A stretch of 10,672 nucleotides of DNA from Haloarcula sp. (lineage in GTDB: Archaea; Halobacteriota; Halobacteria; Halobacteriales; Haloarculaceae). Below, piece after piece: positions 627 through 5,572 of this stretch; within the stretch, counting starts at the first letter, position 1; each line of letters starts with the position of its first letter. Location: the NCBI GenBank assembly GCA_028275075.1, contig JAQCNK010000232.1, positions 1-10,672 of the forward strand, in the 5' to 3' direction. Under the pieces are notes generated by a model, which worked only from the letters and a program-made list of their open reading frames with translations, had not been told where the DNA came from and ran no database searches. The position numbers and the translations under genes are program-made.

Positions 627-1163
627 TCACATCCGCGAGAAGTTCTCTCCGGGGTACACGTCTCCGGTTTCGACCGCGAATATCTTGAGCGTCGCCAGCC
701 GGTCGAGCCGGGACGCGGCGTCATCTTCGTCGACGCCGAGTTCACTCGCGCGGGTCAGCACGCGCTCGCGGGTTAGCACTGATTCGATGAACCCGTCGTC
801 GTTGACGTGGCTGACGACGAACCCGCCCGGCAACCGCTCGGTGATAGCCGCCACCAGGGCCGCTCTGTCGAGTCGGGCCTCGAACCGATACCGGTGACCG
901 TCCTCCGGTCGGTCGACCGCCGTGACGTTCGCGCCTTCTGCTGTGACCGCCTCGGTCAGCGTCTTGCTGAGGCGGTCGCCGACCGCTGTAGCGACCGATT
1001 CCCGTTCGCGAGTCAGTTCTCGTATACGGGTCGACAGAACGATTGATAGAATTCGGCTCGCCAGACCCCGGCGAATATCTATCAGGGCTTCTGTCGACCC
1101 GTATATCTCCGCGGAACGGTGTTCGTAGCTGTCGATCTGTTCGTGGAGCGGTTCGTCGTCCAC
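627..1163 (-). CDS. Uncharacterised acidic coiled-coil-like protein with an in-frame mobile-element insertion
   Basis: I do not recognise the family. I place the start at the GTG at 1163 and not at any codon inside the antisense aminopeptidase. It is preceded by the purine-rich stretch GGGGGAAGG and by an AATTT box about 25 nt upstream, and gives 178 residues. Residues 1-20 (VDDEPLHEQIDSYEHRSAEI) are a charged helix. Residues 21-47 are encoded by a palindromic 83-bp element. From residue 48 (RELTRERESVATAV) the charged helix resumes. Removing 81 bp joins the two flanks in frame as SAEI-RELTRE, giving a 151-residue protein with a continuous helical N-terminus. The C-terminal part (about 90-178) looks globular. 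It contains a stretch ending GGFVVSHVNDDGF, and the protein ends VYPGENFSRM. It lies in tandem with gnd and divergent from the aminopeptidase. Whether the protein is still functional is unknown. With no in-frame ATG, GTG is the only good start. Confidence 0.7.
   Translation of the reverse strand: MDDEPLHEQIDSYEHRSAEIYGSTEALIDIRRGLASRILSIVLSTRIRELTRERESVATAVGDRLSKTLTEAVTAEGANVTAVDRPEDGHRYRFEARLDRAALVAAITERLPGGFVVSHVNDDGFIESVLTRERVLTRASELGVDEDDAASRLDRLATLKIFAVETGDVYPGENFSRM
1023..1105 (-). mobile_element. 83-bp foldback (MITE-like) element, family A, copy 1, inside a coding region
   Basis: Perfect 17-bp terminal inverted repeats, TATACGGGTCGACAGAA at 1023-1039 and its complement at 1089-1105. 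A second, imperfect inverted repeat lies inside (GATAGAATTCGG pairing with the region ending ATTCGCC), so the whole element can fold into one long hairpin. It encodes no transposase. It is 80/83 identical to an inverted copy at 5392-5474. Both ends are bounded by TA, as expected of elements moved by IS630/Tc1-type transposases that duplicate TA. On that reading the net gain is 79 + 2 = 81 bp, exactly 27 codons. Four of its six frames have no stop codon, including the one used by the host gene. The mobilising transposase is not in this window. Confidence 0.85.
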
Positions 1164-2350: not shown

Positions 2351-2430
2351 ATACTGGTGGCTGTAAGTTCGTAAAGATATTCGCCACCCCGGGGTGGCGA
2401 ATCACTTCAGTTTGTTACAGCCACCAGTAT
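2351..2430. mobile_element. 80-bp foldback element, family B, intergenic
   Basis: Perfect 16-bp terminal inverted repeats, ATACTGGTGGCTGTAA at 2351-2366 and its complement at 2415-2430. The centre is a perfect 24-bp palindrome, ATTCGCCACCCC at 2379-2390 followed by GGGGTGGCGAAT at 2391-2402. The middle of each arm pairs only partly. It has no coding capacity. The string AGATATTCGCC sits 24 nt from the left ATAC end, exactly as in the family A elements, and TGGCGA recurs in the right arm. The two families therefore look related, with diverged termini. It lies 20 nt past the aminopeptidase stop and 63 nt before rimI, so its hairpin could act as a transcript end or boundary; that role is inferred. 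Confidence 0.85.
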
Positions 2431-5372: not shown

Positions 5373-5572
5373 CCGCTGCAGGGTTCGATAGTATACGGGT
5401 CGATAGAAGCCCTGATAGATATTCGCCGGGGTCTGGCGAGCCGAATTCTAGCAATCGTTCTGTCGATCCGTATAAGACAGCGCTCGGTCCGAAAAAACTG
5501 GGCCAGCGCGACGGCCTCATCTAGGGACTCTACGTCGTGACACTCTGTCGGCAGTGTCTCGGTATAACTCAC
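5369..5572 (-). CDS. Doubtful small ORF with element-derived C-terminus
   Basis: A 67-residue frame starting at the GTG at 5572. Residues 1-33 (MSYTETLPTECHDVESLDEA... ending RTERCL) have the acidic composition and codon pattern of a haloarchaeal protein. Residues 34-60 are read through the family A element and are very basic (IRIDRTIARIRL...), unlike anything else here. The frame then ends IEPCSG and stops. Taking out 81 bp leaves a 40-residue ORF in the same frame. No Shine-Dalgarno sequence and no convincing TATA box precede the GTG, and I recognise no family. It could be a small protein, the remnant of a longer gene, or chance. Confidence 0.3.
   Translation of the reverse strand: MSYTETLPTECHDVESLDEAVALAQFFRTERCLIRIDRTIARIRLARPRRISIRASIDPYTIEPCSG
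5392..5474 (+). mobile_element. 83-bp foldback (MITE-like) element, family A, copy 2
   Basis: This is the reverse complement of the element at 1023-1105, with only three differences in 83 positions and no length change. Its terminal inverted repeats are TATACGGGTCGATAGAA (5392-5408) and the complement of TATACGGATCGACAGAA (5458-5474), so two of the three changes fall in the termini and slightly spoil the pairing. TA bounds both ends. It sits 19 nt after the rhodanese stop. On the minus strand it forms the 3' part of a doubtful small ORF. Confidence 0.85.

Follow-up and report, generated by a model that had tools for sequence, protein, structure and literature searches.

The DNA analysed here, a stretch of 10,672 nucleotides that we call the window, belongs to a haloarchaeal MAG of 2,059,687 bp in 373 contigs, which is 72% complete. 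Near its beginning lies a gene of unassigned function, and an 83-bp near-palindrome at 1023-1105 is lodged within its reading frame (Table 1). Folded together with a few flanking bases, this palindrome reaches a minimum free energy of -47.5 kcal/mol (z -6.0), a stability equalled by none of 200 shuffled sequences, and an Rfam scan of the window returned no match.

Table 1. Features of the window that are considered in the text, with their positions and the evidence for each.
Feature	Position	Strand	Evidence
Deletion junction (VNDDG repeat) in host gene	within about 789-806	minus	DNA alignment with 6 relatives; 112 homologues
Host gene, uncharacterised haloarchaeal protein, 178 aa	627-1163	minus	homologue alignment, profile search, structure models
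Target duplication (TA, 2 bp), first copy	1023-1024		flank comparison; empty site of relatives
Core of MITE-like element, TACGGG...CCCGTA, 79 bp	1025-1103	minus	fold, family scan, flank comparison
Target duplication (TA, 2 bp), other copy	1104-1105		flank comparison; empty site of relatives
GTAATT motif 5' of host start	1187-1192	minus	alignment with relatives
Divergent neighbour, M29 aminopeptidase	1248-2330	plus	PF02073, E 1.2e-56
Member of a different palindromic family (ATACTGGTGGCTGTAA ends), 80 bp	2351-2430		scan
Second copy of the element, intergenic	5392-5474	plus	95% identical over matched stretch

Read from a GTG at 1163, the host gene encodes 178 residues, in which SAEI is followed by 27 residues and then by RELT. 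The host protein matched 113 proteins, and 112 were kept as homologues, P0113 being dropped because it is no homologue and shares the element. The nearest homologue, P0001, is uninterrupted across the site (MDDEPLHEQIDSYEHLSAEI-RELTRERE), and none of the 112 has five or more residues in the columns of the insert. At the DNA level, six relatives of the genus display a gap of exactly 81 bp where the element lies, that is, the empty site, and the insertion point is a TA within an Ile codon (ATA). The original prediction had described a mobile palindromic element, inserted at a duplicated TA with a net gain of 81 bp and the frame kept, and had expected homologues to be continuous from SAEI to RELT and to lack residues 21-47. 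It is borne out on each of these points by the fold, the many dispersed copies, the target duplication, the exact gap and the homologues.

A start codon 3' of the element, which would leave the latter in a 5' untranslated region, can be ruled out. There is no ATG, GTG or TTG in frame between codon 1 and codon 104, so that such a start would lose a conserved block, and the GTG coincides with the ATG at which the six aligned relatives start. Upstream of it, GTAAT occurs in all six relatives and the full GTAATT in four of them, and this motif is possibly a promoter element. As the frame, the start and the upstream motif are all retained, it is conceivable from the sequence that the 27-residue insert is translated. 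A search of other proteins with the insert peptide gave no match and was uninformative, since it also missed P0113, a known sharer of the element.

The family was counted in the window and 78 further stretches of the MAG (79 in all, 653,117 bp), chosen among those listed for holding matches. They contain 110 complete copies, the 28 single ends being excluded from all counts, and their density of about 1.7 copies per 10 kb applies to stretches that were picked for matches. Over the MAG, the 14-base end motif was found with at most two mismatches at 137 places per strand (0 and 5 for the control) and the 17-base end at 119 and 125 places by strand (0 and 0 for the control). Copies measure 68-84 bp with both target copies included, have long inverted, TACGGGTCGACAGAA-like ends and bear no transposase gene. 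By length, they number 33 at 83 bp, 28 at 77 bp, 24 at 84 bp and six each at 74, 78 and 82 bp, followed by the rarer 76 bp (three), 68 bp (two), 70 bp and 73 bp (one each). The 77-bp class and its kin, about 40 of the 110 by eye and length, share a 6-bp deletion in one arm. Seven complete copies, that at 1023-1105 among them, are identical in sequence.

Identical dinucleotides flank both ends in 103 of the 110 copies, namely TA in 96, GA in four, TC in two and AA in one, and differ in the other seven; the scan pattern included TATA ends with up to four mismatches, which may have inflated the share of TA somewhat. Because GA/GA, TC/TC and AA/AA pairs occur among them, the duplication is of 2 bp and the core runs from TACGGG to CCCGTA. 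Moreover, copies nested in other palindromic families, intact members of which also exist, reveal the empty site directly, as in L056:2174-2337 compared with the intact L099:5434-5514; further nested elements lie at L081:3202-3363, L036:13166-13328 and L098:7948-8095. The family thus displays the traits of a MITE: short length, no transposase gene, terminal inverted repeats, a fixed 2-bp duplication, near-identical dispersed copies and empty sites. The ATACTGGTGGCTGTAA-ended family is distinct; its flanks fit a 3-bp TNA target duplication, the scan paired its ends at 31 places in the fetched stretches, some of them nested, and similar sequence is present on plasmids of Haloarcula and other haloarchaea.

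Duplication of TA is a trait of the IS630/Tc1-mariner family and fits the TA target of the element. No autonomous transposon with the element's ends was found in the searched part of the genome, and mobilisation in trans is presumed. Searches of the MAG for DDE_3 and DDE_Tnp_1 yielded one DDE_3 match (IS630-type), split over three frames, and four DDE_Tnp_1 matches, and none of these loci carries element-like ends within three mismatches. At L189, a perfect 16-bp inverted repeat (1100-1115 and 2027-2042) surrounds a DDE_Tnp_1 gene; its sequence is unlike that of the element and it probably forms the ends of an unrelated insertion sequence. The half-element at L054:11122 was considered as a parent transposon and rejected, the ORF that follows being no transposase and, by its look, presumably Dps-like. 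Other single ends that were inspected mostly look like half-elements too.

Beyond this genome, none of the 31 other genomes of the genus gave a whole-element match at E <= 0.001. The 17-base end, with at most two mismatches, occurs in at least one place in 46 of 146 genomes of the family, mostly in one to three places that may be due to chance, and copies were confirmed in G081, G096, G102, G106, G108, G136 and G138. The 38 loci in other genomes correspond to 34 copies, or 30 after removal of duplicates, of which 28 have TA on both sides. Diverged relatives are found in the MAGs Halobacteriaceae archaeon Tc-Br11_E2g27, Halovenus sp. B1Sed10_238R1 and Halobacteriales archaeon SW_7_65_23. A contig scan of other genomes returned nothing with strict ends and 18 stretches in three MAGs with looser ones, and plasmid, phage and viral collections searched by blastn or exact patterns gave no match to the family. 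A 77-bp copy that matches those of the window's MAG in type lies on a contig of 4,610 bases in G081, possibly as contamination. Across 20 copies (two own and 18 of the 30 foreign ones), the hairpin positions pair in 94.8% of cells and six pairs are changed on both sides. Of five pairing measures, four surpass almost every shuffle, the exception being the number of further pair types. Such symmetric changes are no proof of a role for the RNA, since a single transposase binding both ends predicts the same.

The distribution of the copies was compared with that of all TA dinucleotides, using a home-made codon-score gene caller on contigs from which the elements had been removed. The 15,845 TA sites divide into 11,312 coding, 310 stop-codon, 1,851 tandem, 1,285 divergent, 552 convergent and 535 contig-end sites, and the 110 insertions into 15, 13, 31, 21, 18 and 12, respectively. 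Uniform use of TA would have placed 78.5 insertions in coding sequence (p = 1.9e-36). Even the 15 called ones dwindle on inspection: seven (E005, E006, E022, E071, E080, E094 and E109) are read-ins in the stop-codon phase that lie close to the end of a gene or joined ORF, of which 3 to 34 codons remain, and seven more (E001, E024, E026, E035, E039, E072 and E076) were judged to lie in ORFs that are tiny, doubtful or mis-started, the least clear case being E026. As in-gene candidates, E022, E026 and E076, with coding scores on both sides, and E001, E024, E035, E039 and E072, in called ORFs, were rejected on their neighbours, frames and readings, which indicate gaps, gene ends and mis-called starts; these judgements were made by eye and codon score rather than homology, and for E026 by neighbours and reading. 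The one that remains is the copy at 1023-1105 (E000), which has homology on both sides; the caller had put it in an antisense ORF, and its placement inside a real gene rests on homology. Among the foreign copies, one of 30 (L193, phase 0) scored coding on both sides and four lie on stop codons. Landing within a gene therefore looks like a rare exception for this family.

Unexpectedly, 20 of the 110 copies supply the stop on which a called gene ends, 13 at stop codons and seven read-ins, the antisense ORF over the copy at 1023-1105 having been subtracted from a raw count of 21. The tails so written (n = 22, with that ORF included and one copy bearing two) read YTGRQND in nine cases, YTGRQKP, YTGRQNE and YTGRH in two each, and are single in seven. 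In the stop-capturing phase, all 220 ends reach a stop by codon 9, which is a TGA at codon 8 or 6 in 195 of them; in the two remaining phases, 206 and 212 of the 220 ends are open. The same holds in 15 foreign copies, all 30 ends of which stop at codon 8 or 6, with the other phases open in 26 and 21 of 30. The subfamily with the 6-bp deletion keeps its TGA in the same phase, giving the YTGRH tail. Among the four non-coding classes, TAs of stop codons received 13 insertions compared with 6.4 expected (p = 0.013, uncorrected for four classes). One copy, at L087:4645-4727, lies on the stops of two convergent called genes, both of which now end within the element.

The host protein itself gave only sub-threshold matches in a Pfam/NCBIfam search, including one to DUF5817_CT under the Pfam cut-off; PF22798 is carried by four of the 113 protein matches. 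Relative to the 187 residues of most homologues, it has gained 27 and lost 36. The loss is a second event, overlooked by the original prediction and separate from the insertion, namely an in-frame deletion of 108 bp after VNDDG, and all 112 homologues retain at least 20 of the 36 positions concerned. Short direct repeats flank the deleted stretch (VNDDG and, in P0001, VDDDG), a situation that resembles the repeat-mediated deletions of Haloquadratum as excerpts of PMC3119063 describe them. Over 151 aligned residues, seven differences from P0001 were listed. Those at 18 and 19 are effects of gap placement, the correct placement yielding L16R in a nearly invariant column; P139L replaces a proline found in every other homologue compared, S59P falls in a column that is 93% serine and in which no other homologue compared has proline, and V79A brings the residue to the family consensus. 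Mean conservation is 0.73 in the changed columns and 0.72 in all columns, compared with 0.44-0.53 for changed columns in pairs of intact relatives, these column comparisons being based on 62 of the 112 homologues.

From the core deletion and the changes at conserved positions, we infer that the gene is under relaxed constraint. The GTG start, where the aligned relatives have ATG, and the lower pTM of the modelled protein likewise give it a decayed look. The argument rests on few changes, since two of the seven are gap-placement effects and one moves toward the consensus, and it is opposed by features of a functional gene: neither indel shifts the frame, the sequence has gained no stop and the promoter-like motif persists. 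A match to the gene is present in 22 of 32 genomes of the genus, the window's MAG included, and in 21 of the 28 high-quality ones; the seven high-quality genomes in which none was found suggest that the gene is dispensable. No second copy was detected in the window's MAG, which is about 28% incomplete.

AlphaFold2 models were obtained for P0001 and for the window protein, the latter with insert and deletion together. A long N-terminal helix is predicted in both, spanning residues 6-49 in P0001 (pLDDT 89.8, pTM 0.79) and 6-76 in the window protein (pLDDT 83.4, pTM 0.45), exactly 27 residues longer. Mean confidence in the window protein exceeds 90 in the blocks covering the insert (21-50) and lies between 58 and 77 in the blocks 81-130 near the deletion; in the P0001 model, the stretch deleted here forms a strand (E99-103) and a helix (H111-126). 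Of the two changes, the deletion is probably the more damaging, and the insert by itself would probably be tolerated; the drop in pTM belongs to both jointly and is not apportioned between them. A fold search with the P0001 model returned no match at E <= 0.001 and 938 at E <= 10, and some winged-helix regulators are present among the best 50 of these 938.

We consider it probable that we are dealing with a miniature inverted-repeat element that is non-autonomous, targets TA and is mobilised in trans, and that survives here as a passenger in a dispensable gene under relaxed constraint. A transposase, presumably of DDE type, would have moved it to the TA of the Ile codon, probably recently. Since copies of this length add 81 bp and the element, in this phase and orientation, contains no stop, the frame stayed open, and the transcript would specify 27 additional residues by which the N-terminal helix is extended. 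The insertion would then have persisted because the host gene is under relaxed constraint, the order of insertion and deletion being presumed, and elsewhere the family would survive chiefly between genes and at gene ends.

Other explanations of the host gene fare less well. The protein could still work in a remodelled form, with a lengthened helix and a trimmed domain, both indels being tolerated or even selected; the stop-free frame, the kept start and upstream motif and the continuous modelled helix would agree with this. It is nevertheless an unlikely account, given that every homologue keeps most of the deleted stretch with its strand and helix, that pTM falls so markedly and that P139L and S59P introduce residues unseen in the other homologues compared. 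That the repeat caused two unrelated contig pieces to be fused in assembly comes to mind with so fragmented a MAG and a repeat of 83 bp, but the flanks rejoin into one homologous protein, the target duplication is perfect and the gap measures exactly 81 bp, all of which makes such an artefact scarcely credible. The host case is most likely that of a passenger in a decaying gene.

As to the family, the original prediction had seen in the insertion the pattern of the Rickettsia palindromic elements (RPE), and this analogy is not supported by the census. An element built for an in-frame, translated life in coding genes might be expected to add multiples of three, as the 83-bp and 77-bp classes do (81 and 75 bp) and as holds for the net length of 69 of 110 copies, and the 83-bp form is indeed open in four of six frames. 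We regard it as very improbable: a single copy was shown to be internal to a gene, compared with about 78 expected under uniform TA use, and that gene looks decayed; the net lengths of 41 copies would shift the frame; and many foreign relatives measure 82 bp (net 80) or 85 bp (net 83) and are not divisible by three, unlike those of 83 and 86 bp. Adaptation for read-through is not supported either, four open frames being reached by 9.8% of shuffled palindromes (P = 0.098). If phases are equally likely, roughly 0.63 x 2/3 = 0.4 of in-gene copies would stay open, the first factor being the share of net lengths divisible by three and the second that of open phases, so that one in-frame survivor needs no special adaptation. 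A second idea is that a function at gene ends maintains the family, which would there capture stops, add a short tail with its own stop and provide a hairpin 3' end for termination or mRNA processing. The fifth or so of copies that supply a gene's stop, the foreign copies on stops, the excess at stop TAs and the universal early stop in that phase speak for it; yet the enrichment is modest and most copies lie elsewhere, divergent regions are hardly avoided (21 compared with 26.7 expected, p = 0.2), identical copies suit a spreading parasite, and the stop arises from a motif that forms part of a palindrome, so that the two ends are not independent tests. Such a function seems to us quite doubtful. 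Somewhat less so, though still rather unlikely, is the view that gene ends are the niche of this MITE, which would insert in the TA of stop and nearby Tyr codons in the single phase in which both arms offer an in-phase stop, mostly TGA after 5-7 residues, and write in about one fifth of copies a common C-terminal tail of YTGRQ type on unrelated proteins together with a hairpin 3' end, internal in-frame inserts being a rare alternative. Returning to the passenger reading, the data suggest that the element is here tolerated in frame by a decaying gene and does not habitually live in this manner.

The locus offers a clear haloarchaeal case of a mobile palindrome in frame in a gene, for which both the empty site and the target duplication are available, and through its capture of stop codons the family offers archaea new C-terminal tails and 3' hairpins that can be counted and tested. 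In form, the TA target, the near-palindrome spanning the whole element and the mostly intergenic location recall repeats of the ERIC, Correia and RUP type. RUP and Correia (NEMIS) palindromes also use a TA target. Likewise, ERIC and RU-1 repeats of bacteria are short, non-autonomous stem-loops with TA duplications, high copy numbers, a mostly intergenic location and some gene-end fusions, a likeness of form and not of descent; in the enterobacterial units covered by the relevant part of PMC2759123, one RU-1 copy removed a stop codon and extended an amidase. These units are of 103-168 bp, whereas the haloarchaeal element is of 83 bp and has a fixed short tail on its own stop. RPEs share the palindromic form, the mobility and the in-frame insertion in a protein gene, but sections of PMC10969869 give them a length of about 150 bp and place nearly half of those of R. 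conorii in ORFs, in frame, unlike the 83-bp element, for which one copy of 110 was shown to be in a gene, and that gene looks decayed. At gene ends, QMITE1 and QMITE2 of Coxiella overlap genes at their 3' ends, to which they contribute stops or C-terminal residues, and have in-frame copies in hypothetical ORFs, according to extracts of PMC5896051; they are larger (150-400 bp), have different target duplications and belong to an unrelated host. In the open-licence literature, as represented by such extracts, we found no haloarchaeal MITE in frame or at a gene end, both situations being known in bacteria. Among haloarchaea, Haloquadratum walsbyi harbors MITEs and small mobile repeats (SMRs) that lack a transposase, have inverted ends and insert into each other, some MITEs being without a functional partner transposase; its A-type SMRs are of about 110 bp and, as far as portions of PMC3119063 describe them, without target duplication, in contrast to the 2-bp duplication observed here. 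We regard the element as a new haloarchaeal family of a known kind.
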